35,328 bases of DNA from IMG/VR virus record IMGVR_UViG_3300042881_000679, positions 1 to 35,328 of that record. One strand, written 5' to 3'. Position numbers and translations under genes: made by a program. Shown here piece after piece: positions 2,276-34,917 of the stretch. Source of the DNA: a virus. Each line of letters starts with the position of its first letter. The first letter of the stretch is position 1. The notes beneath the pieces were generated by a model, which saw only the letters and a program-made list of their open reading frames with translations, was not told the origin of the DNA and did no database searches.

Positions 2276-2965
2276 TTAAATGGGGGCTGGGGGATCGGCG
2301 GGTGGCGTGGTGGTGGGCGGATACTTGGCTAGGGATTCGGCTCTTGGCTTTCTTCGTCTCATTTGCTTGTGACGAAGCTTAGGAGTTTTTGCTTGTGTAT
2401 CTTGTTGTTGTTCAACAGAGTTGGTCTTGTTGATACAATACTTATTATTCGACAAATCATTTTCTGGTTTGGTAGCAACTGGTTGAATATCAATATAGTT
2501 ATGACTGCTTTCGATTTGTCGCTTTTCTGGAGTCGATGTGATTTTCTTTCTGCCCGCGATGCCCGCGAGTAGCTGCGCCAAGTTCCCGCTGATGCCGTGG
2601 GTGACATCCTGGCTAACTTGCAGTCTGGCAGAGGGTTGTGCATATCCGTACACTCGCTCGCTCATCCAAGCCTTTGCCTGCCAGCTTTTCTGTCCCGCCA
2701 ATTCTATGTCTCGCAGTAGGGAAAGCTCGTGCTTTTTTCTGGCGGACTCTACACGCCGAGCGAAATCTGGCTTACGGCTTGCCCAAGTTTTAATCGTGGA
2801 AGGATTGACCCCAACTAAAGCACCCGCCTTTTCTAAGGTAAATCCAGACCCGCACGCCGATATGATTTCCTCGGCCAATTCTTTAGTAAATATCTCACGC
2901 CCATTCTTAGCCTTTTCTGGCGCGGTGGAGTCCGCTGCTTCATCCATAAGTTTTACTTCTACCAC
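2276..2965 (-). CDS. terS: Terminase small subunit
   Basis: 229 residues from GTG 2965; an ATG at 2947 (residue 7) is an alternative start. Residues about 43-63 form a helix-turn-helix of the type used by TerS to bind the packaging site: Thr-Leu-Glu-Lys-Ala-Gly-Ala-Leu-Val-Gly-Val followed by Pro-Ser-Thr-Ile-Lys-Thr-Trp. A charged coiled segment follows (Asp-Phe-Ala-Arg-Arg-Val-Glu-Ser-Ala-Arg). The C-terminus is low-complexity, with a Lys/Arg cluster and a Pro/Thr-rich tail. TerS recruits the concatemer and regulates TerL. It is the first gene of the minus-strand virion block and diverges from the plus-strand small-gene block. The assignment rests on the HTH and on its place next to TerL. 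Confidence 0.87.
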   Translation of the reverse strand: MVEVKLMDEAADSTAPEKAKNGREIFTKELAEEIISACGSGFTLEKAGALVGVNPSTIKTWASRKPDFARRVESARKKHELSLLRDIELAGQKSWQAKAWMSERVYGYAQPSARLQVSQDVTHGISGNLAQLLAGIAGRKKITSTPEKRQIESSHNYIDIQPVATKPENDLSNNKYCINKTNSVEQQQDTQAKTPKLRHKQMRRRKPRAESLAKYPPTTTPPADPPAPI

Positions 2966-3086
2966 ACTTTGACTTAAATAAAAACTATTGACTGATCCAA
3001 GCGGATGGCATAAGTTGTCAATCGTCGAGGGAGAATCCTATCGGATTGCCCAAGGCATAAAAGAAAATAAGGAGACACAAAATAAA
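2966..3086. promoter_or_regulatory. Divergent intergenic region between terS and the plus-strand small genes
   Basis: These 121 bases must drive both the late (minus) block beginning with terS and the plus-strand small-gene block. Two copies of TTGACT occur on the plus strand at 2969-2974 and 2988-2993. A perfect TTGACA lies on the minus strand at 3021-3016, but no convincing TATAAT sits 16-18 bases downstream of it. On the plus strand, AAGGAG at 3069-3074 is the ribosome site of the first small gene. Promoter presence is inferred from the divergent layout; the exact elements are uncertain. Confidence 0.4.
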
Positions 3087-3311
3087 ATGAGCGCACTATA
3101 CGGAACAATCGAAGGAGCTAAAGGAATGGCGACACGCTGCGGGCATCGTGAGTTAGTGACTCACTCGGCCTGTTGGAATGGCGCAGTTAGAGTTGAGTTG
3201 CAACACGACAAGAAAACCAATTCAACATCGTATCGGGTTGAGTTAGTGCCTTGGCGTGGAGCTGGGGAAAATAAGTTACTTGCTGAGGGAGTAATGGAGA
3301 CTCTGAAATGA
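3087..3311 (+). CDS. Small hypothetical protein, first gene of the plus-strand block
   Basis: 74 residues from ATG 3087, preceded by AAGGAG 12 bases upstream. The frame is open back to a TTG at 2988, but that would place the start inside the promoter region, so the ATG is preferred. The protein contains Thr-Arg-Cys-Gly-His near the start and a predicted beta-rich middle (Ala-Val-Arg-Val-Glu-Leu and Tyr-Arg-Val-Glu-Leu-Val). Not recognised as a known family. It overlaps the next gene as ATGA and is probably expressed early, judging by its position opposite the late block; the function is unknown. Confidence 0.7.
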   Translation: MSALYGTIEGAKGMATRCGHRELVTHSACWNGAVRVELQHDKKTNSTSYRVELVPWRGAGENKLLAEGVMETLK

Positions 3312-3481
3312 CTTGGGGAATCTACAACACCAGCGGAAAACTACTAAAGAAGTTCTCCTCTTGTGCGTCTGCTCATCGCTGGCTGCTCCGAAACGATTTG
3401 GAGTGGAGTGGATGCGAGATTAGGACGCTGAGAGGTGAATGGATAATGAACCCGATGAGAAAGGAGGAGAATCAGAAATGA
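3308..3481 (+). CDS. Small hypothetical protein (57 aa)
   Basis: 57 residues starting at ATG 3308, which overlaps the previous stop as ATGA. It opens with Met-Thr-Trp-Gly-Ile-Tyr-Asn and holds a Ser-Ser-Cys-Ala-Ser-Ala-His-Arg-Trp-Leu-Leu segment, with basic residues spread over the chain. No family recognised. An AAAGGAGGAG stretch near its 3' end provides the ribosome site for the following gene, so the two are translated from one message. The coupled overlaps on both sides are the main evidence that it is real. Confidence 0.6.
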   Translation: MTWGIYNTSGKLLKKFSSCASAHRWLLRNDLEWSGCEIRTLRGEWIMNPMRKEENQK

Positions 3482-3576
3482 ACTCGACACCGCAAATCTA
3501 TGCTTTGGGGTTGCTACACGGAGGACTTTTGCTCGGTTTCGTCTGGCTAGTCTGGCCTAAGAATCGGCGCAAATAG
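3478..3576 (+). CDS. Tiny single-span membrane protein (32 aa)
   Basis: 32 residues from ATG 3478 (ATGA overlap with the preceding gene), with a strong AAGGAGGAG site about 9 bases upstream. Residues 8-26 are almost entirely hydrophobic (Ala-Leu-Gly-Leu-Leu, Leu-Leu-Leu-Gly-Phe-Val-Trp-Leu-Val-Trp) and are followed by Pro-Lys-Asn-Arg-Arg-Lys, so a single inner-membrane helix with a cytoplasmic basic tail is predicted. Function unknown; size and topology would suit a small holin-like or membrane-protein regulator, but nothing in the context decides this. Confidence 0.55.
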   Translation: MNSTPQIYALGLLHGGLLLGFVWLVWPKNRRK

Positions 3577-3622
3577 TCCCGCCTTGTCTTCTCCTTTAGC
3601 ACGGGAGAAGCAAAGGATGGAT

Positions 3623-3665
3623 TAAACCGCTAGGTTTACCCACTCCAAACGGCAGCGCAGTCATA
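3623..3665 (+). repeat. Hairpin plus 19-bp repeat, copy 1
   Basis: A perfect 6-bp hairpin TAAACC/GGTTTA with a GCTA loop (3623-3638), followed 8 bases later by AAACGGCAGCGCAGTCATA (3647-3665). The same 19 bases recur exactly at 4144-4162, and their first ten bases recur at 4584-4593. It lies in the 127-base gap between two small genes; a further CTTCTCC/GGAGAAG inverted repeat lies just upstream, around 3594-3610. Regulatory or RNA function is possible but unproven. Confidence 0.65.
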
Positions 3666-3703
3666 TTGATTGCGCGAATGAAAGAAAGAAAGAGGAATAG
3701 AAA

Positions 3704-3898
3704 ATGATTAAGACAAGAACAGGAGCGCAAAGATACAACGCAAGGATGAGTAGGCTATTCGAGGAAGCGGTGCGATTAAAGAAGCATTATGAATCCATAA
3801 CAGTAGTTATTGACGTTCGCGGCGGTGTTGCTGAAGTAGTTAGCAAGCCCCAAAATATAAACGTAGTAATAAGAGACTGGGACAACATCGGGGCGTAA
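3704..3898 (+). CDS. Small hypothetical protein (64 aa)
   Basis: 64 residues from ATG 3704, with a GAGGA site 8 bases upstream. The N-terminal half is helical and basic (Met-Ser-Arg-Leu-Phe-Glu-Glu-Ala-Val-Arg-Leu-Lys-Lys-His-Tyr). The C-terminal half alternates hydrophobic and polar residues (Thr-Val-Val-Ile-Asp-Val and Val-Ala-Glu-Val-Val), suggesting short beta strands. No family recognised. It follows the first copy of the 19-bp repeat by 38 bases, so that element may control it. Confidence 0.65.
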   Translation: MIKTRTGAQRYNARMSRLFEEAVRLKKHYESITVVIDVRGGVAEVVSKPQNINVVIRDWDNIGA

Positions 3899-3919
3899 TG
3901 GACAAGAAAGACAAACACC

Positions 3920-4096
3920 ATGACACACCCTAAGCAATTAGATGAAGCTGGAATTACTGAAAGTTATCTCCGAAAGATGGCCAAGAAGGAGGGCGTATCT
4001 TACAAAAGAGCGGTGCAGATAGCGATGGAGCAATGGGGAGAGTATTCCCTGAAGCTGATTAACAAGATGATGGCGGAGGAAATTAAGACAAGATAA
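3920..4096 (+). CDS. Small hypothetical helical protein (58 aa)
   Basis: 58 residues starting at ATG 3920, 21 bases after the previous stop. It is almost wholly helical and charged: Leu-Asp-Glu-Ala-Gly-Ile-Thr-Glu-Ser-Tyr-Leu-Arg-Lys-Met-Ala-Lys-Lys-Glu-Gly-Val, then a Met-Glu-Gln-Trp-Gly-Glu segment. The Glu-Gly-Val-Ser-Tyr-Lys-Arg-Ala-Val part loosely recalls a helix-turn-helix, but not enough to assign one. The minus-strand frame across the same bases (3938-4123) lacks coding character. No clear ribosome site. Confidence 0.6.
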   Translation: MTHPKQLDEAGITESYLRKMAKKEGVSYKRAVQIAMEQWGEYSLKLINKMMAEEIKTR

Positions 4097-4097
4097 C

Positions 4098-4162
4098 AAC
4101 CCTGCCAAGGGTTCAAACCCCAACGGCTTTCGCGCTTGCTAATAAACGGCAGCGCAGTCATA
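4098..4162 (+). repeat. Hairpin plus 19-bp repeat, copy 2
   Basis: A 6-bp hairpin AACCCT/AGGGTT with loop GCCA (4098-4113) starts 1 base after a stop codon, and the exact 19-bp repeat AAACGGCAGCGCAGTCATA follows at 4144-4162. The repeat's last bases run straight into an AAGGAG ribosome site for the gene at 4171. Copy 1 is 497 bases upstream. The GGGTTCAAACCC string here resembles a tRNA T-arm, but no tRNA surrounds it. Confidence 0.65.
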
Positions 4163-4170
4163 AGGAGAAT

Positions 4171-4377
4171 ATGAAAACTAAAAAAAGAATTAGCAAAAGA
4201 ATAAAAAGGATAGGATGCTTTGAATATGGTTATATCAGAAAGCCATCCGAAATGTTGGGAACGATGTACCCACACCGCCCGCATTGGTGGATTCAGCATC
4301 TTGGTAATGGATTGGATGCAATATATAAAACCAAGCGGGAATGTTTTGAGTGGATGAAATTATGGGATTTGAGATGA
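4171..4377 (+). CDS. Small basic hypothetical protein (68 aa)
   Basis: 68 residues from ATG 4171 with AAGGAG ending 3 bases upstream. The first 14 residues are very basic (Lys-Thr-Lys-Lys-Arg-Ile-Ser-Lys-Arg-Ile-Lys-Arg) and the rest is aromatic-rich, with His-Arg-Pro-His-Trp-Trp-Ile-Gln-His. The tail, Asp-Ala-Ile-Tyr-Lys-Thr-Lys-Arg-Glu-Cys-Phe-Glu-Trp, resembles short phage proteins that accompany nucleic-acid functions, but no family is recognised. It overlaps the next gene as ATGA. Confidence 0.65.
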   Translation: MKTKKRISKRIKRIGCFEYGYIRKPSEMLGTMYPHRPHWWIQHLGNGLDAIYKTKRECFEWMKLWDLR

Positions 4378-4547
4378 ACGAAGACGAAATTATAAAAGCC
4401 TACCTTTCGCGCCTAGGCAAGAAGGGCGGGAGCGTCAAGGGATCGTGCAAGGCTCGCAAGCTTTCGCGGGAGCATTACGCCAAGGTTGGAAAGTCTCAGC
4501 GGGAGCGTTGGGATAAGTTTCGGCGGGAGCGTCAAACGGAAGCGTAG
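4374..4547 (+). CDS. Small basic Gly-Gly/RW-motif protein (57 aa)
   Basis: 57 residues from ATG 4374; the frame is open to 4350, but the ATGA overlap with the previous stop favours 4374. It has a Leu-Gly-Lys-Lys-Gly-Gly-Ser-Val-Lys-Gly core, then Lys-Ala-Arg-Lys-Leu-Ser-Arg-Glu-His-Tyr and a Gln-Arg-Glu-Arg-Trp-Asp-Lys end. This is the pattern of small bacterial and phage proteins with GGK...SxE...RW repeats, which look like nucleic-acid-binding peptides. Four of the five GCGGGAGC repeats of this locus fall within the gene, partly in different reading frames. Last gene of the plus-strand block. Confidence 0.65.
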   Translation: MNEDEIIKAYLSRLGKKGGSVKGSCKARKLSREHYAKVGKSQRERWDKFRRERQTEA

Positions 4548-4562
4548 CCTTTCGCGGGAGCG
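4426..4562 (+). repeat. Five GCGGGAGCR repeats
   Basis: The nonamer GCGGGAGC(G/A) occurs at 4426-4434, 4466-4474, 4499-4507, 4523-4531 and 4554-4562, with start-to-start spacings of 40, 33, 24 and 31 bases. Copies 2 and 5 share a longer CTTTCGCGGGAGC block. Four copies overlap the 57-aa gene, but they are read there as both Gly-Gly-Ser and Arg-Glu, so the peptide alone does not explain them. The last copy is in the convergent intergenic region. Confidence 0.55.
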
Positions 4563-4593
4563 TTAGCCCTATAAGGGTGCTATAAACGGCAGC
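4548..4593. terminator. Convergent intergenic hairpin (possible bidirectional terminator) with partial repeat
   Basis: 46 bases between the last plus-strand small gene and the last gene of the minus-strand replication block. An imperfect hairpin, TAGCCCT-ATA-AGGG-T-GCTA at 4564-4582, lies in the middle. AAACGGCAGC at 4584-4593 matches the first ten bases of the 19-bp repeat and abuts the minus-strand stop codon. The position suggests a shared terminator, but no U-tract follows on either strand, so intrinsic termination is uncertain. Confidence 0.35.
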
Positions 4594-4758
4594 CTAGCGA
4601 CCAATACGGCAACAGCAGGCTCGGTTTCCTAGCTCCTCAACCTTGAATTTGACCACTGGAAGGTCTCGGGCATCACATTTTGATTCAAAACGCCTAGAAA
4701 CAGGCTTTCTGCTCGATTCTGATAGGTTGTGGCGTGTTTTTTTGGCTACCTTTGCCAT
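4594..4758 (-). CDS. Small basic Cys-containing hypothetical protein (54 aa)
   Basis: 54 residues from ATG 4758, beginning 1 base after the stop of the preceding gene (TAATATGG). It is basic at the start (Met-Ala-Lys-Val-Ala-Lys-Lys-Thr-Arg) and ends with Asn-Arg-Ala-Cys-Cys-Cys-Arg-Ile-Gly-Arg; with Cys28 this gives four cysteines that could bind metal. Not recognised. It is the last gene of the long minus-strand block and ends at the partial 19-bp repeat. Confidence 0.55.
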   Translation of the reverse strand: MAKVAKKTRHNLSESSRKPVSRRFESKCDARDLPVVKFKVEELGNRACCCRIGR

Positions 4759-4759
4759 A

Positions 4760-4999
4760 TTACCAGTTTTTGCATGACCACGCGCGAGCTGTTAGCTTGC
4801 TGGGAGGGTTGCTGTCACACTTGTGCCTAGCTCTAAAGCTACGCCTACGCTCTGGATTGCTCTTCTTAATGGTCATCTTTGGGTCGCCGTAGCGGATAAC
4901 CTTGCTTTGCCCATCCTTACACGCTCGGACTACAAATTTACGCGCCTCTCCAGGTGTACGCCTAGGGCTATTACAAGGCAGTTCTCTAGGATTCATCAT
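4760..4999 (-). CDS. Conserved small phage protein with RRRSFRARHxCD...WSC..W motif
   Basis: 79 residues from ATG 4999 (a second ATG follows directly), with a GAGGT site just upstream. The order of motifs is diagnostic of a small protein found in many marine and freshwater phages, including T4-like cyanophages: a Lys-Val-Ile-Arg-Tyr-Gly-Asp-Pro-Lys-Met segment, then Arg-Arg-Arg-Ser-Phe-Arg-Ala-Arg-His-Lys-Cys-Asp, then Ala-Arg-Ala-Trp-Ser-Cys-Lys-Asn-Trp at the end. Its biochemical role is not known to me; Cys and His suggest a small metal-binding or structural fold. In relatives it often sits near head genes, while here it closes the replication block. It overlaps the upstream gene by 14 bases. 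Confidence 0.8.
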   Translation of the reverse strand: MMNPRELPCNSPRRTPGEARKFVVRACKDGQSKVIRYGDPKMTIKKSNPERRRSFRARHKCDSNPPSKLTARAWSCKNW

Positions 5000-6655: not shown

Positions 6656-7584
6656 TTTCCTCCTTTGCAAAACCATAATAGGCTTTGCATTTTGTCTTCT
6701 CTCTTTGCCCCAGGAATCCTAACGGGTTGACTGGGTTTGAATGTTGCAGGGTCGCAGCCCAACGGAATAAGAAAAGCTTTTAATTGATCCACCCATTCGT
6801 TCTTTGGTGGCATCTCAAACCAACCATGCAAGCTCTTCCCGCCAGTATCCACGACAGCGTGTAGTTTCATGCTGAATAAATCGCGCATCAGTTGGAACAC
6901 CGCGCCCATCTCTGGCTTGGTGAGTACATCCGACTCGACAACTAAGAACACCCTATGCTCAACCGTATCGTTGGATCGGCTGACTGTACCCTGCTTGTAG
7001 CTCGCGCCAGTTGTGTACTGCCCAATCGGTTCATCCAGCTTCTTCCACTCGTAAGCGATGCGGAAGTTCTGTGGATGCTTACCGCTGTCTGTGACGTTGC
7101 CTATCCAGATATTGTCAAGAGCGTTGAACAGCGACAGGAACAACTGATAGTCCTGTGCTGGATCGCCAAGCTGGGTTGGGCTTTCCTCGTACATATCCGC
7201 TGGGTCCCAATTGTAGTGAGTCAAGTATCTTTGCTTGTTCGACTCGGCAATTGTCTTAATCCTATCCAGCACCTCTGAGTGCGGGTCTTTCTTGATGACC
7301 AGCTTGGGTACGGCTGTGCCACCCGACATAATGTTTACTGGCTTGTAGAGAACATCGCTGGATATAGCTCGGCGAAGCTTACGGTTAGCCTCATCACGAT
7401 ACGGCGTGCAGGAGGTATGCCAGCAGAATATAGTCGGCGCGCCATCTACGAACACCGTTGTATCTCTGATGCGGGTGTGGCTGGTATGCGCAGCCTCACC
7501 TGGGCATTTGCACAGCCCGTGATTCTCGGACTGCCAATCGACTTGGCCTACGATCTCTTCAGCTTGCCGTTGTGCGGTTGTCAT
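6652..7584 (-). CDS. Primase of archaeo-eukaryotic type with N-terminal zinc finger
   Basis: 310 residues from ATG 7584 (ATGA overlap with the gene before). An N-terminal zinc-finger-like cluster has Cys25, Cys27, His33/His36, Cys54, His56 and Cys59. The C-terminal half carries the three marks of the archaeo-eukaryotic primase fold: Val-Val-Glu217-Ser-Asp219, then Asp-Thr-Gly-Gly-Lys-Ser-Leu-His253-Gly-Trp, then Val-Arg289-Ile-Pro-Gly-Ala-Lys-Arg. The first acid of the metal pair is Glu rather than Asp. Such proteins make primers and, in some plasmids and phages, also extend DNA. It is coupled to the helicase downstream. Family assignment is by motif; whether it is a primase only or a primase-polymerase is open. 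Confidence 0.83.
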   Translation of the reverse strand: MTTAQRQAEEIVGQVDWQSENHGLCKCPGEAAHTSHTRIRDTTVFVDGAPTIFCWHTSCTPYRDEANRKLRRAISSDVLYKPVNIMSGGTAVPKLVIKKDPHSEVLDRIKTIAESNKQRYLTHYNWDPADMYEESPTQLGDPAQDYQLFLSLFNALDNIWIGNVTDSGKHPQNFRIAYEWKKLDEPIGQYTTGASYKQGTVSRSNDTVEHRVFLVVESDVLTKPEMGAVFQLMRDLFSMKLHAVVDTGGKSLHGWFEMPPKNEWVDQLKAFLIPLGCDPATFKPSQPVRIPGAKREDKMQSLLWFCKGGK

Positions 7585-8333
7585 CCGTCATAACACCCGC
7601 AAGGCACTTCGTCTGGCAGGTCCTCAAATAATTTCATTTGGCTTGCATCTGATCTGATTAAGTCTTCCCACTTCCAGTTGCGACCAAGACCAACCACAGT
7701 TTTAAGGTGAGCATTGTTTTCCATTGCTATTGCTCTTTCTGCCAGAGCAGGGTGGTTCTTGGCAAGATCAAGAACTTCGTGCTTCTTCATTGCTGGACAA
7801 TAAAAGCACGATGACTTGGCTGGCTTGAATCCAGCCTCTGCCACAACCTCAACGCACTTCTTTCTACCCCAACCCCAACGCACTAGCGGGTACTCATAGA
7901 TGTACTTCTTGTCCTCTGGTATTTTCCCTCGGTGATGCTCGCCAGCGTCATACCCAATCAGCTTCAAGCATTTTCCACCAGCCTTCCAGCAATCCTTGGC
8001 TGGTTGCCAGTTGTTGACGAACTTATCCTGGGGCTGGATCTTATACTTCTGCGAGCAACCTTTAAAGCCATAGGCCAGACTTGGCAGCATATTCTGGCGC
8101 AAGCAATTCTCTTCGAGAGTTTCCTTGGCGTACTTCACGGTAACCACTTCTGGCATATCGTGCTTAACCAACCAATCAGAAAATATCTTAACAAACTCAT
8201 AAGTCTGTGGTAGCTCGCCACCAGTATCAGCAAACAAAATGAGGTCTGGAATGACCCCGCGCTTCTGCATTTCAATCAGCATCGCTGCTGAATTTGTCCC
8301 TCCTCCGAATGATATGATTAAAGGAGTTTTCAT
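7581..8333 (-). CDS. PAPS-reductase-like ATP pyrophosphatase, substrate unknown
   Basis: 250 residues from ATG 8333. The N-terminal PP-loop is Ser-Phe-Gly-Gly-Gly-Thr-Asn-Ser-Ala-Ala (8-17), followed by Phe-Ala-Asp36-Thr-Gly-Gly-Glu. Further conserved elements are Gly-Cys93-Ser-Gln-Lys, Gly-Tyr-Asp-Ala-Gly-Glu-His-His-Arg (127-135), Trp-Gly-Trp-Gly-Arg-Lys-Lys-Cys160 and Ser-Ser-Cys176-Phe-Tyr-Cys179-Pro. The family activates a substrate with ATP, as in sulfate reduction, tRNA thiolation or DNA phosphorothioation (DndC). The four cysteines could hold an iron-sulfur cluster. It is much shorter than DndC. Similar stand-alone proteins occur in many phages without a known role. It sits between a nuclease-like gene and the primase, both coupled by ATGA overlaps. 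Confidence 0.85.
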   Translation of the reverse strand: MKTPLIISFGGGTNSAAMLIEMQKRGVIPDLILFADTGGELPQTYEFVKIFSDWLVKHDMPEVVTVKYAKETLEENCLRQNMLPSLAYGFKGCSQKYKIQPQDKFVNNWQPAKDCWKAGGKCLKLIGYDAGEHHRGKIPEDKKYIYEYPLVRWGWGRKKCVEVVAEAGFKPAKSSCFYCPAMKKHEVLDLAKNHPALAERAIAMENNAHLKTVVGLGRNWKWEDLIRSDASQMKLFEDLPDEVPCGCYDG

Positions 8334-8922: not shown

Positions 8923-10029
8923 TTATTTGCTTTCTAGTTCTATTGCCTTTCTGGATGCCTCAACAATATCCTGCGCTGTAATATTCCGCAGGGCGTTACA
9001 CCAGTATTGCGTCTTGGGTGTTTTGTTACTCGCATCCTTGCACTTAGCCTGCGGCAAGCCAGCGTGCGGACGGCAAGGTGCGTGTGGGCAGGTATCGGGT
9101 TTGAATATCGACACGTTCTTACTATAGTAGGTCATGCGATCCGCTGGGTCATACGAACCCCACAGCGACACACACGGCGTATCCAATCCAGCAGCCATGT
9201 GATTGACTGAGCTATCTGGAGCAACAACAAAGTCAGCCCCACTGATAATCGGGAACAGCGAGCGCACAGCCTTGGTGCAGTTGAATAGGTCAATCACTCG
9301 CGGATGATCCACCTTAAAGTTGTTTGAGTTATCCAGCCCAATAATAACAGCGTGATGTTTGGGGTAAGCCTCAAGCAACGCCAAGACCGCTTCCTGCCCC
9401 ATTGTCGGCGGGTAGGTGCGGGTAGGACCGCTAGACGAAACATGGTAAGCAAAGAACGGACTAGGCAACGGCCACTTGCCCATCGCCTTTAGTTCATCGT
9501 GGTCTGGCTCGATGAGATGCAGAACTGGCTTACAATACTTAGCCATACTCTTCTCATCCCAAACACCCATCCACTCATAGATCCTCTGGTAGCAGTTGCC
9601 AGGACCAGTGCCTAGCTTTGTGTTGCCTACCTGTCCGCTAAACAGATCGTCCGTGACCAAGTGCGCATCAAAACTTTCCCATGCTTCAAGCGATGCAGGC
9701 AACGGCCACAGCTTTGCACCCAGCCCAGCGTAGAGAGGCAGGTTGCGAGCAGGAGCGTAAACTTCCACAACCCCACCCGACTCTTGCACCAAGTAATTGA
9801 CGAAGGCAGTAGCGATGATCGCGTCACCGATTGCACCAGCGCGGTAAACGGCTGTTGCCCCACCAGCAGCTCGGCCTTTGTAGTAAGGCTTGATCTTGTG
9901 TGGGCAAGGGATTGAATCGTCCCAGGTTGGTCCAGTTAGCTCATCGGGCAACACATAGGTAGTGCGTGGATAGAGCATATTGTCATCAACTTTGTGAATT
10001 GCGTTTGTGTTATTTGTCCATAGTTTCAT
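8923..10029 (-). CDS. Glycosyltransferase, GT9 (ADP-heptose transferase)-like
   Basis: 368 residues from ATG 10029 (ATGA overlap). A GT-B fold of the heptosyltransferase group is indicated by Gly-Ala-Ile-Gly-Asp-Ala-Ile-Ile-Ala at 65-73 and, in the C-terminal domain, Ala-Asp-Phe-Val-Val-Ala-Pro-Asp-Ser-Ser-Val-Asn-His-Met-Ala-Ala-Gly at 265-281 followed by Ser-Leu-Trp-Gly-Ser-Tyr-Asp-Pro. GT9 enzymes add heptose to lipopolysaccharide core, but phage members may act on other targets. The last 60 residues hold Cys314, Cys319, Cys330 and Cys344, a possible metal site also seen in phage relatives. About 50 N-terminal residues precede the fold. Together with the GT8-like gene and oxygenase in the same operon it suggests glycan or nucleic-acid decoration. 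Confidence 0.85.
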   Translation of the reverse strand: MKLWTNNTNAIHKVDDNMLYPRTTYVLPDELTGPTWDDSIPCPHKIKPYYKGRAAGGATAVYRAGAIGDAIIATAFVNYLVQESGGVVEVYAPARNLPLYAGLGAKLWPLPASLEAWESFDAHLVTDDLFSGQVGNTKLGTGPGNCYQRIYEWMGVWDEKSMAKYCKPVLHLIEPDHDELKAMGKWPLPSPFFAYHVSSSGPTRTYPPTMGQEAVLALLEAYPKHHAVIIGLDNSNNFKVDHPRVIDLFNCTKAVRSLFPIISGADFVVAPDSSVNHMAAGLDTPCVSLWGSYDPADRMTYYSKNVSIFKPDTCPHAPCRPHAGLPQAKCKDASNKTPKTQYWCNALRNITAQDIVEASRKAIELESK

Positions 10030-10301: not shown

Positions 10302-10477
10302 TCTTCACCCACCACTTCCTTGCAGACTAGGCTGGCCGCATCCACCATCGTGATGATCTGGATCATATCCACCGAGCGTCCGTGAGTAGCGCGGTTACGC
10401 TCCAAGACAAGCTTCTCCCTGGCAATGGCAAGCATGTCCCTTGCCCACTTCAATCTGTTCTTGGCCTCTACATTCAT
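10298..10477 (-). CDS. Small helical hypothetical protein (59 aa)
   Basis: 59 residues from ATG 10477, overlapping the stop of the gene before and the start of the gene after, both as ATGA. It is helical: Leu-Lys-Trp-Ala-Arg-Asp-Met-Leu-Ala-Ile-Ala-Arg-Glu-Lys-Leu-Val-Leu-Glu, then Thr-His-Gly-Arg-Ser-Val-Asp-Met, and ends Glu-Val-Val-Gly-Glu-Glu. Not recognised. Confidence rests on perfect coupling and sensible composition. Confidence 0.62.
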   Translation of the reverse strand: MNVEAKNRLKWARDMLAIAREKLVLERNRATHGRSVDMIQIITMVDAASLVCKEVVGEE

Positions 10478-11100
10478 TGTGCATCCCTTTCTTTAATGTC
10501 ATAATAAAACGAATCCGTATCCTCCGTCACCCACTTGTCACTCTGATTCTCTACGCTTGGCAGGTCAGTATCAACCCGAAACTGCTTTAGGTTATCTGGC
10601 AACTTCTTGGTAACCCAATTCGAGTCACGCCAGAAGATTCTGTTGTTTGGCATACAAAGTAAGTAGCCATCGTCACCTGCGAAGACGTGGCCGCACTTGT
10701 AATCTGACGGCTCATCGCTGTACGGATTGTTAAACCAATCCACAGTAAACAAGTATGTACCCCATACCTTAGTCGCATCCCGTAGCAGTATCTGCGCGCG
10801 GTGGTAGGCCAAGAAGCTGTACTCAGTCACAGTCACGTTCTCGCTGAAGCAATCCCAAAGCTGTTTGTAGTTGAATGGGATGTCGGCCTCTGGCTCGTGA
10901 GTGTAAATCTCCGATAGCGGTACTCGACTCCGCAGCATTCCAGAGTCAGTCATAACGTGGAAGGTTAGGATTGCCCCAGCGCAAGACTGCAAGGCAAACA
11001 CATAGACGTTGTAAAACTCCTTGTCCTCCTCGTTCTTGGTGAAAAACGACTTCCTCACCATAGCCTTGAAGCTTGGTATGTTCTCGTTGAGCGTTGCCAT
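10474..11100 (-). CDS. Hypothetical protein (208 aa)
   Basis: 208 residues from ATG 11100, which shares one base with the stop of the oxygenase gene (TAATG); the longer open frame to 11199 would run through that gene and is rejected. It is soluble and aromatic-rich, with Phe-Leu-Ala-Tyr-His-Arg-Ala-Gln-Ile-Leu-Leu-Arg-Asp in the middle and Tyr-Lys-Cys-Gly-His-Val-Phe-Ala-Gly-Asp-Asp-Gly-Tyr-Leu-Leu-Cys-Met-Pro further on. The Cys and His are suggestive of a metal site, but no family is recognised. Its coupling to the oxygenase suggests a partner or substrate-related role; this is inference. Confidence 0.72.
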   Translation of the reverse strand: MATLNENIPSFKAMVRKSFFTKNEEDKEFYNVYVFALQSCAGAILTFHVMTDSGMLRSRVPLSEIYTHEPEADIPFNYKQLWDCFSENVTVTEYSFLAYHRAQILLRDATKVWGTYLFTVDWFNNPYSDEPSDYKCGHVFAGDDGYLLCMPNNRIFWRDSNWVTKKLPDNLKQFRVDTDLPSVENQSDKWVTEDTDSFYYDIKERDAQ

Positions 11101-11666
11101 TATCGCCAGGCAGGTCCAGTGAACCAAGCCACCAACACCCAGCGTGTACCCCAGATAGGCGCACGCGCACGATGCTCTAGGTAGGATGGAAACCAGCAAC
11201 CTGCTCCTTGCTCGCGGACGAACTGAGCGTTCTCCATATCAGCCTTAACCTGCAACCCTCCTCCGATATACTCCTCTGGCGCGGATAGGTTCACCACCGC
11301 CGTCAGCTTTCGATCAGATCCAGTATAGGTATCGAAGTGCCACTTGAATCTCTGGAACGGAGTGTATCGCAGTATCTGCAACTGTTGGATGCCCTGGATG
11401 TCGAATCGCCATTGCTCGGCATTGATGCCTTCCGTAATCTCGCGCATGATATTATAGATCCAGTTGTAATGCTTGGCGTAAGGTATCCAGCACGACGAGC
11501 AAGTTCGCGTACGTGATATCGTACGTGTCACCCCATCCTTCGACAGCACTGGCGCACGCTTCATCCCGATCACTTCCGCATCCTGGCGCAGCATCTCACA
11601 CTGCGTCTTGGTTAGGACGTACCTATCTACTGAAGCGGTTAATACCTTCTGCCTGAACTCAGTCAT
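11100..11666 (-). CDS. 2-oxoglutarate/Fe(II)-dependent oxygenase, PKHD/prolyl-hydroxylase-like
   Basis: 188 residues from ATG 11666 (ATGA overlap). The double-stranded beta-helix signature is clear: Trp-His110-Phe-Asp112 for the first iron ligands, Glu-His165-Arg for the third, and Ile-Trp-Gly-Thr-Arg175-Trp for the 2-oxoglutarate carboxylate. Between them lie Leu-Thr-Ala-Val-Val-Asn-Leu-Ser and Gly-Gly-Gly-Leu-Gln. These enzymes hydroxylate proteins, small molecules or modified bases with oxygen and 2-oxoglutarate. PKHD-type proteins are common in aquatic phages, with target usually unknown. A Cys56-Ser-Ser-Cys59 pair near the N-terminus is extra. It is flanked by an RHH-like gene and a coupled unknown gene. 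Confidence 0.87.
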   Translation of the reverse strand: MTEFRQKVLTASVDRYVLTKTQCEMLRQDAEVIGMKRAPVLSKDGVTRTISRTRTCSSCWIPYAKHYNWIYNIMREITEGINAEQWRFDIQGIQQLQILRYTPFQRFKWHFDTYTGSDRKLTAVVNLSAPEEYIGGGLQVKADMENAQFVREQGAGCWFPSYLEHRARAPIWGTRWVLVAWFTGPAWR

Positions 11667-27238: not shown

Positions 27239-28449
27239 GTTGCGTAGTATGGAATCTTTCGACTAGTTCCATTTATGGATACGGTCAGATATCCAGCATA
27301 GGTTGCTGGCTTTGAGAGGCCGCCAGTTCCAGCCGATGTTGCGGTAGTTGTATTGGAAAGCGTCACGTTTCCATGGACGTGAAGCGTGGATAAGGCTGTG
27401 GCGGTTCCGATTGAGCAATTCCCACTCGAATCAATGCGGAGGCGTTCTGTTCCGCTTGTACCAAATGCACTTGTATTAACTGCAAAATAACAACCAGTAG
27501 ACGTCGAGTCTCCAACAAGATAAACAGGAGCAGCGGTTGATGTTGAGTCTATCCATGATATAGACCTATTGGTACCGCTAGCAGATTGGAAGGCAAGCCC
27601 ACCTCCATCTATTGATAGTTTCCTAATCGGACTCGTAGTCCCAATCCCGACATTGCCTCCATTCTGGAGGGTCATAAGTGCTTCTCCACCTGCTCCTGAT
27701 ATTACTGCATCGGGAGTTGCTGATGCGCTTGCTGCTCCAAAATATACTGGTCCTCCTGTTGAGACGTACCTTGCACCAACTGCGTATTGCTCACTTGCCG
27801 CAGAAAAAGTAGACCTACCACCAACAACGTCGAGTTTTGTCGCAGGACTCGTAGTCCCAATCCCAACATTCCCACTCGAATTAATCCGCATTCCTTCAGT
27901 TCCGCCTTCACTAAACGCAATCGTATCAGCGGCTGGGAAAAAGATGCCAGTATTGGTATCGCCAGTAGGAACGATTGCTGGGGCTGCTGCCGTGCCTGTG
28001 CCTGTCGTGACAAGGGTTGTTGCGACTAGGGTTGGGATTGTGCCAGTAGTAATCGTTGCAGCAGTAGATGTGGTCGTTCCAAAAGTTCCAGTGTTTATCG
28101 TTCCAGTAGTAATCGTTGCAGAGGTACTATTCAACGTGGCAATCGTTCCGCTTGTGACGATCTGCGCTGTCGAGGTTGTCGTCCCTGTCGTAAGATTGTC
28201 AACCGTTCCTGACGTGCTGACAAGGGGGGCTTTCAAAAGGTTGGCAACTGTCATCCGCTTCAAATTATTAGAATCTGAAGCATCGCCAATGAGAAGCGTG
28301 TCGTTTACGCCTACCACAGTCTCAGCAGTACGATCTTGAATAAAGCCAGAGGTAGGCGTGGCGTTGGTAACTAGCGCGCCTAGTTTAGCTGCTGTTACGT
28401 CATTGGATACCCCGTCAACAAATGTAGTTCCTGCGGTAAATGAAGCCAT
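27235..28449 (-). CDS. Tail fibre/spike-like protein with GNVGIGTTSP repeats (404 aa)
   Basis: 404 residues from ATG 28449. The N-terminus resembles a particle-binding segment (Asp-Gly-Val-Ser-Asn-Asp-Val-Thr-Ala-Ala-Lys-Leu). Residues about 80-165 are a Thr/Ser/Ala/Ile low-complexity beta repeat. The middle has three turns of (R)I(N/D)SSGN(V/C)xIGT...K/TL.(V/I)xG, including two exact Gly-Asn-Val-Gly-Ile-Gly-Thr-Thr-Ser-Pro units, a sequence usual in trimeric fibre shafts. It ends Thr-Val-Ser-Ile-Asn-Gly-Thr-Ser-Arg-Lys-Ile-Pro-Tyr-Tyr. The S74 self-cleaving chaperone that often follows these repeats is missing. Likely receptor-contact protein. Confidence 0.75.
   Translation of the reverse strand: MASFTAGTTFVDGVSNDVTAAKLGALVTNATPTSGFIQDRTAETVVGVNDTLLIGDASDSNNLKRMTVANLLKAPLVSTSGTVDNLTTGTTTSTAQIVTSGTIATLNSTSATITTGTINTGTFGTTTSTAATITTGTIPTLVATTLVTTGTGTAAAPAIVPTGDTNTGIFFPAADTIAFSEGGTEGMRINSSGNVGIGTTSPATKLDVVGGRSTFSAASEQYAVGARYVSTGGPVYFGAASASATPDAVISGAGGEALMTLQNGGNVGIGTTSPIRKLSIDGGGLAFQSASGTNRSISWIDSTSTAAPVYLVGDSTSTGCYFAVNTSAFGTSGTERLRIDSSGNCSIGTATALSTLHVHGNVTLSNTTTATSAGTGGLSKPATYAGYLTVSINGTSRKIPYYAT
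27629..27864 (-). repeat. 20-bp repeat pair in the fibre gene
   Basis: GGACTCGTAGTCCCAATCCC occurs at 27629-27648 and 27845-27864 (plus strand). Both copies encode the Gly-Ile-Gly-Thr-Thr-Ser-Pro part of the shaft repeat. Identity at the DNA level indicates recent duplication or recombination between shaft units. Confidence 0.7.
28043..28121 (-). repeat. 60-bp-period repeat in the fibre gene
   Basis: CCAGTAGTAATCGTTGCAG is found at 28043-28061 and 28103-28121, 60 bases apart, with related, less exact units on both sides. It codes for the Thr-rich Ala-Thr-Ile-Thr-Thr-Gly-Thr repeats. Such tracts can expand and contract. Confidence 0.65.
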
Positions 28450-34306: not shown

Positions 34307-34917
34307 CAAGCAAATCTGGCAGATTGATTATTTCTTGTCGAGAAAGTTCTTGGTAGTTGTATTGCCTTGGGCTTTTGCGATCCCATACCAGCTACGGGCA
34401 TTGTTTGGTTGGGAGTTGTGGTTGATGCTGTTTGTGTAGCCTGCATACCAGGTTGCATATTAGCAAAATTATTCATCGCGCCTTGGTTCAGAGTGTTGCT
34501 GTTTTGCATTCCTTGCTGGAGAAAGTTTTGGTAGTTCTGCATTTGCTGTTGCTGGCCTTGTGGATTTTGATATTGAGATGCCATTGCACCCTGTTGGCCT
34601 TGCGGTGGCTGAATCGGCATTAAGGTTGGCATATTTGTATTTGGATCTACTGGCATATAGCCTGCCCTATTTGGATCTACTTGGACATATCCTGCCGTTG
34701 AATTTGTTGATTGTTGGCCTACATCATCTATTCGCGTATCAAATTGACCCGCTTTGGCGCGGGCTGTCATGTCTGCAAGCATCTGGTCATATCTCTGTTG
34801 CGCCATAGCTGCATCAAAATTAGGATTACGCACTAAATCAAACGGTGCTGGAGCGGGTTTTCGTCTTAGCATTGGCCTAGGCGTTTGTTTCGGTGCTGCT
34901 TTTCTTCTGATTGCCAT
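34306..34917 (-). CDS. Gln/Pro-rich virion-associated protein (203 aa)
   Basis: 203 residues from ATG 34917, one base after the portal stop. A basic N-terminus (Met-Ala-Ile-Arg-Arg-Lys-Ala-Ala-Pro-Lys) is followed by Gln/Asn/Met/Pro-rich low complexity, with two Val-Asp-Pro-Asn-Arg/Thr units near residues 78-94 and runs of Gln around residues 105-135. Probably disordered in solution; a head or portal-associated role is suggested by location only. Confidence 0.6.
   Translation of the reverse strand: MAIRRKAAPKQTPRPMLRRKPAPAPFDLVRNPNFDAAMAQQRYDQMLADMTARAKAGQFDTRIDDVGQQSTNSTAGYVQVDPNRAGYMPVDPNTNMPTLMPIQPPQGQQGAMASQYQNPQGQQQQMQNYQNFLQQGMQNSNTLNQGAMNNFANMQPGMQATQTASTTTPNQTMPVAGMGSQKPKAIQLPRTFSTRNNQSARFA

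Follow-up and report, generated by a model that had tools for sequence, protein, structure and literature searches.

The 19-mer repeat and its adjoining stems in the small-gene block of this virus are fragments of a larger system. Within the window (35,328 bases, a complete IMG/VR virus record), the first copy of the repeat is the 3′ part of a structured intercistronic RNA of ~100 nt (3576-3675), which folds on the plus strand into hairpins P1, P2, and P3, has its start in register with the preceding gene's stop codon, and stands between exchangeable gene cassettes. One strand of this RNA has two conserved and mutually exclusive partners. It is quite possible, though short of probable, that the first copy is a member of a family of intercistronic RNA elements which work in cis as a two-state switch, its reader being the ribosome at the stop codon.

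The repeat copies lie in a block of small plus-strand genes (2988-4547), flanked on one side by the small terminase gene (2276-2965, minus strand) and on the other by minus-strand genes that include a primase/helicase. The 19-mer, AAACGGCAGCGCAGTCATA, has two exact copies, at 3647-3665 and 4144-4162, and no further site in the window at ≤3 mismatches; 0.02 copies were expected in shuffled sequences, and no shuffle reached two. There is also a ten-base partial copy, AAACGGCAGC, at 4584-4593 and a near copy, AACGGAAGC, at 4535-4543 within the 3′ end of the preceding gene. The two exact copies and the partial copy had been reported in the initial annotation and were all confirmed, as were its three hairpins, TAAACC/GGTTTA (3623-3628/3633-3638), AACCCT/AGGGTT (4098-4103/4108-4113), and TAGCCCT/AGGG..GCTA (4564-4570/4574-4582). 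However, its view that these three stems are one shape with a variable sequence did not survive comparison with relatives, where the stems are not homologous and fall into types A (copy 1), B (copy 2), and C (copy 3). A, B, and C are three different module types, and the linker is all that they share.

The type A element runs, in order, through the stop codon, P1, P2, the linker AAACGGCA, P3, and the ribosome-binding site, all on the plus strand. In the window, the upstream small gene (3439-3576, its product ending in LLLGFVWLVWPKNRRK) is the commonest gene before P1-P2 elements, and its TAG stop (3574-3576) supplies the first paired base of P1. P1, defined by RNAalifold and by pair counts over 54 copies, is a 47-nt hairpin with two internal loops (3576-3622) that separate the helices P1a (3576-3579/3619-3622), P1b (3582-3585/3613-3616), and P1c (3588-3595/3603-3610). 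It is followed by the P2 core hairpin TAAACC-GCTA-GGTTTA (3623-3638), which is the first stem of the initial annotation, and by CCACTCC (3640-3646), the 3′ side of an extension of P2 (P2x), which in relatives reads CAUCCU, UGACCU, UGGCCU, ACCU, or, in one of them (L137), CAAUCCU. The linker (3647-3654) is the most conserved stretch of type A, is unpaired in most models, and forms the seam where 3′ modules change. The remainder of the 19-mer is held by the P3 hairpin, GCGCAGTCA-TAT-TGATTGCGC (3655-3675), which some relatives have swapped whole for GCGCA-(GCGA, GUAA, GCAA, ACGA)-UGCGC, three of the four loops being GNRA. A purine-rich tail (3676-3703) then carries the ribosome-binding site of the downstream small cassette gene (3704-3898), for which no match was found in Pfam or PHROGs. 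The interval first singled out (3623-4593) omits P1, with which the conserved structure opens at 3576, and hence the greater part of that structure.

The fold was recovered from an alignment of 54 distinct type A copies made with MAFFT, structure not being used. RNAalifold, unprompted, returned P1 as three helices (4 + 4 + 8 pairs, with two internal loops) together with part of P3, and 14 of its 19 pairs showed double compensatory changes. In the named 24-pair structure, 97.6% of cells over the 54 copies were paired; double-change cells numbered 152, against 39.6 in shuffles and 10-43 with slid partners, and the covariation score was 0.414, against 0.098-0.174 for slid partners. P1 by itself (16 pairs) had 99.7% of cells paired and double changes in 13 pairs. 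Among the oppositions in P1 over all 111 elements that were found, 147 were G-U and none were A-C; therefore, the plus strand is the one that is folded. When each copy's own partner strand was compared with those of other copies, z values of −9.5 for P1c and −5.3 for P3 were obtained, and single type A copies fold 2.1-6.1 standard deviations below shuffles. Of the stems for which covariation had been suggested as a check, P2 of type A is the one kept with compensatory change. The first hairpin of type B found no support in the partner test. The earlier suggestion of a function in RNA is borne out by the folded plus strand, the covarying stems, and the recurrence of the repeat in relatives.

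The start of the element is fixed with respect to translation. Every one of the 111 elements has a stop codon between positions −8 and −2 relative to the first paired base, and in 97 of them it stands at −2 or −3; in the −2 register, pairing begins with the G of UAG. The frame before the stop is open for at least 30 codons in 106/111 elements, the background rate at equal offsets being 3.5%. The upstream genes comprise at least 14 families, one of which precedes 68/111 elements, and the register is kept within the same few bases for the 43 elements outside this commonest family. Termination with re-initiation had been put forward as a possible role. Termination finds no backing, as there is no T tract and, of five terminator-like sites, not one is a plus-strand site at P1, P2, or P3, and short-range re-initiation is unlikely because the next start codon lies 90-185 nt (median 122) beyond the stop.

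The exact 19-mer was found in six IMG/VR contigs, and a large-terminase search gave 80 relatives, out of 227, at 89-99% identity. Nearly all relatives whose small-gene block is covered carry two to seven copies of AAACGGHAGC on the plus strand of the block; three of them (L063, L073, and L077) have no such copy, yet the hairpins are present. Hence, the 19-mer and the stems do recur in relatives, which is the opposite of the outcome that the initial annotation had named as speaking against it. A search with TGATTGCGCGAATGAA added 59 new hits, of which 17 without the linker were counted as chance. A covariance model scored 104 bits at 3575-3683 of the window, and 111 P1-P2 elements were found in IMG/VR relatives. 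In 35 of the 111, the linker and P3 are missing, with AAACAGAAAAGAAAGGA in their place and an ending of the form CCUAACAAACAGAAAAGAAAGGACAC..AUG. The basic unit is therefore P1-P2, with the 19-mer in an optional 3′ module, so that the unit previously drawn, a conserved linker plus a variable stem, is replaced for type A by P1 and P2 after the stop codon, with linker and P3 optional.

No blastn relative of 2900-4800 was found among named phages in a distant search. The nearest named terminases are those of Akkermansia phages (37%), from which the element is absent by the covariance model, and a terminase search of bacterial genomes gave no relative. No Rfam 15 family matched at gathering score in the window or in 8 relatives, a permissive scan giving chance-level hits only, and a tRNA search found nothing. 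The element is thus a previously uncatalogued RNA family that is not in Rfam, and it belongs to freshwater viruses of bacteria; that the host is verrucomicrobial is only a guess.

The type B module in the window (4098-4162, plus strand) contains a GCC-AAGGGTTCAAACCCC-AACGGC hairpin, has the second 19-mer at its end, and forms a second hairpin in which GCGCTTGC (4132-4139) pairs with GCAGCGC (4149-4155) round the loop TAATAAACG. Its general form is GCC-AAGGGTTCAAACCC-..GGC, followed by the hairpin GCGCTTGCC-TATAAAC-GGCAGCGC with the linker in the loop; the type B hairpin ends in TTT(T), and the linker hairpin gave z −2.6 in the partner test. The AACCCT/AGGGTT stem is an alternative pairing that is present in few relatives. 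Type B mostly precedes one conserved gene with a KGG motif. In the window, it is followed by the gene MKTKKRISKR.. (4171-4377, plus strand), which in relatives comes after a type A module, and then by the conserved MNEDEIIKAYL..KKGG gene (4374-4547, plus strand), whose 3′ end carries the near copy at 4535-4543, read there as protein. Near copies of the form AAACGGWAGCGCAGGCA inside the coding sequence of this KGG gene also occur in relatives (for example, L013 at 2239 and L035 at 2611) and are read as QTVAQAQ or QTEAQA; their number differs from one relative to the next, as though the repeat had made its way into the protein. The stretch GGGTTCAAACCC (4104-4126; AAGTTCAACCCTT in the type B modules of some relatives) resembles a tRNA T-arm (G-TTCAANC-C). 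ARAGORN detected no tRNA, and the T-arm-like stem is short. The type C module, AGCGTTAGCCCTATAAGGGTGCTATAAACGGCAGCCTAGCG (4558-4599, plus strand), stands at the 3′ end of the block, includes the partial copy, and has the general form CCTATAAGGGTGCTATAAACGGCAGCCTAGCG; TAGCCCTATAAGGG units are found there, one to three in tandem depending on the relative (window, L016, L035, L052, and L070).

Other observations concern the remainder of the window. A tandem 30-base repeat, its two copies 86% alike, lies in coding sequence at 34638-34696. Diverged direct repeats (66 + 53 bases) lie within minus-strand genes at 27418-27933 and 28037-28149, which likely encode a repetitive tail or fibre protein. Matches to PAPS reductase (7581-8333), a ferredoxin-like protein (10474-11199), 2OG-Fe(II) oxygenase (11100-11666), and glycosyltransferase family 9 (8923-10029), all on the minus strand, mark four possible auxiliary metabolic genes.

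The two states concern the switch strand, AGGATGG in the window (3614-3620, plus strand) and AGG(AUG/UCA/UAA/UGA/CCA) in general, which is the 3′ strand of P1 and can pair either with the 5′ strand of P1 (state I, as the 3′ side of P1b/P1a) or with the strand after P2 (state II, as the 5′ side of P2x). In tests of own against other partners, P1a gave z −3.6 (2/5000) and P2x gave z −8.8 (0/5000); both exclusive pairings therefore covary. The statistical weight is limited, as the switch strands form about six classes and related copies are not independent. The feature expected of an attenuator, two exclusive conserved pairings of one strand, is thus found in P1a/P1b versus P2x. Unconstrained minimum-energy folds had P1a/b in 56 elements and P2x in 41, and for the element in the window the minimum-energy fold has P2x and the centroid has P1a. 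The P2x state costs 0.1-9.1 kcal/mol relative to P1 (median 3.7). When the stop codon and the 12 nt after it were held open during folding, P2x formed in 107/107 elements, with P1c intact. The predicted access of the next ribosome-binding site rose from 0.64 to 0.86 with the stop region covered, the gain exceeding 0.1 in 84/102 elements. Sequestration of the ribosome-binding site was considered as the mechanism but not adopted, since its pairing with the released post-P2 strand or with the P1 5′ strand showed no covariation (z +1.2 and +2.4, own partners being worse than others). In these models, the predicted pairing of the site may be generic purine-pyrimidine pairing.

The elements join many different genes. 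We counted 43 downstream gene families and 74 different neighbour pairs, and 11 families were found on both sides. The type of the 3′ module is constant in 42 of the 43 downstream families, and the commonest upstream family precedes both types. Between P1 and the switch strand there was no reassortment (0 four-combination sets), whereas P1-P2 and the 3′ module have reassorted (14 and 43 four-combination sets); therefore, the exchange point is the conserved stretch after P2. A cassette thus consists of a 3′ module, a gene, its stop codon, and P1-P2. The phage genes at hand for recombination are an exonuclease and a RusA resolvase, and no integrase was found among the 27 window proteins scanned, which makes homologous recombination the likely route of cassette exchange.

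In the switch that we propose, each element opens at the stop codon that ends one small gene and leads into the ribosome-binding site of the next. At a stop codon without a ribosome, the 5′ strand (the stop and about 12 nt) would pair with AGG(AUG..)GAU and complete P1. A terminating ribosome would cover the 5′ strand, P1c would stay, and the freed AGG(AUG..) would pair with the post-P2 strand to form P2x. The fold state would then tie the expression, translation, or stability of the downstream cassette gene to the translation of the upstream gene, and the linker, AAACGGCA(GC), would be the joint for cassette exchange by homologous recombination, at which genes are swapped and every joint stays regulated. 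The wider reading, in which this is a reusable RNA switch at cassette joints that reads upstream termination, with the linker as recombination joint and any inserted small gene coupled to the ribosome, is speculative, and we incline to doubt it.

An element for RNA processing or stability, in which P1 would cut or protect each cistron, serving as a cleavage site of RNase III type or as a 3′-end block, and P2x would be incidental, is also possible but somewhat unlikely. It would suit a long irregular hairpin with internal loops right after stop codons, with strong covariation, no T tract, and a place between nearly every small gene. In the early region of T7, the RNase III sites are likewise irregular intercistronic hairpins between small early genes, with variable sequence and a kept structure; to our knowledge, they have neither an alternative pairing nor a strict stop-codon register. 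However, neither the exact register nor the second covarying partner of one strand is needed for a cleavage site, and P1c is only 8 bp. The reassortment of module types, which travel with the downstream gene, and the near copies even within coding sequence would fit a recombination seam or selfish repeat, a short homology spread by aiding cassette exchange and having no function in RNA; this reading is improbable, as compensatory changes and G-U oppositions without A-C keep the pairing while destroying sequence identity.

Quite improbable, too, is a recognition site for a phage RNA-binding protein or an antitermination complex (put/nut-like), with the linker as single-stranded contact and the stems as scaffold. 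The linker is indeed the most conserved stretch and is common to the structurally different modules A, B, and C, but it is missing in 35/111 elements, where AAACAGAAAAGAAAGGA stands instead, and the copies at the coding end of the KGG gene have other bases at that place. Ordinary intrinsic terminators and promoters between genes are very improbable. They would account for hairpins between genes and for the TTT(T) that ends the type B hairpin, but no plus-strand site at P1, P2, or P3 has the G+C-rich stem and T run of an intrinsic terminator, a search for sigma70-type promoters in 2900-4800 found none, and the TATAAA-like bases are not conserved in type A.

The PeSL elements of T4-type phages are reportedly stem-loop regulatory cassettes between small exchangeable genes that serve as recombination joints, and they are said to carry an early promoter and a terminator-like stem-loop. 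The elements described here share with them the intergenic stem-loop cassette and gene exchange (43 downstream families, the 3′ module moving with the gene) but have neither a sigma70-like promoter nor a terminator at P1-P3. PeSL elements are the subject of Arbiol et al. 2010, as far as its citation in PMC4177764 indicates. Closest in arrangement, and in arrangement only, are the SAS/ESAS of cluster K mycobacteriophages, where many small non-structural genes have a short conserved asymmetric repeat before their translation starts, an imperfect inverted repeat lies upstream of about half of the SAS, and the function is unknown (PMC3203893). There, the SAS is a 13-bp GGGATAGGAGCCC at the ribosome-binding site, and the ESAS repeats have a conserved consensus sequence (PMC3203893). 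Here, inverted repeats (P1/P2) likewise lie ahead of small genes, but the repeat is AAACGGCAGCGCAG and precedes a purine-rich ribosome-binding site that is distinct from it, and the hairpins covary, start at the preceding stop codon, and offer two exclusive folds. In translational coupling by RNA unfolding and in ribosome-read attenuators, the occupancy of a strand decides the structure that affects the next gene (PMC12548453). Ribosome-read RNA structures in general are already well known; the difference here is that the proposed sensor would be the ribosome as it terminates at the stop codon, and that the same element recurs wherever dozens of unrelated genes are joined. An integron attC site was rejected, since P1 starts with GTYYY and ends with RRAY, which is the opposite polarity to RYYYAAC/GTTRRRY, and varies. 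In a limited literature search, we found no description of a reusable, stop-codon-registered, ribosome-read RNA at cassette joints.

Phage genomes contain islands of small genes that change fast, many of which are thought to counter host defences, and how new genes plug into such islands and yet stay properly expressed is poorly understood. In the island described here, the joints are marked by a covarying RNA that is in register with stop codons and shows the points of exchange, and the element can serve to locate cassette genes in metagenomes and to set their boundaries. The idea of an intercistronic switch that senses termination becomes directly testable with reporters. If it is true, any small gene inserted at the locus would fall under the same ribosome-coupled control.
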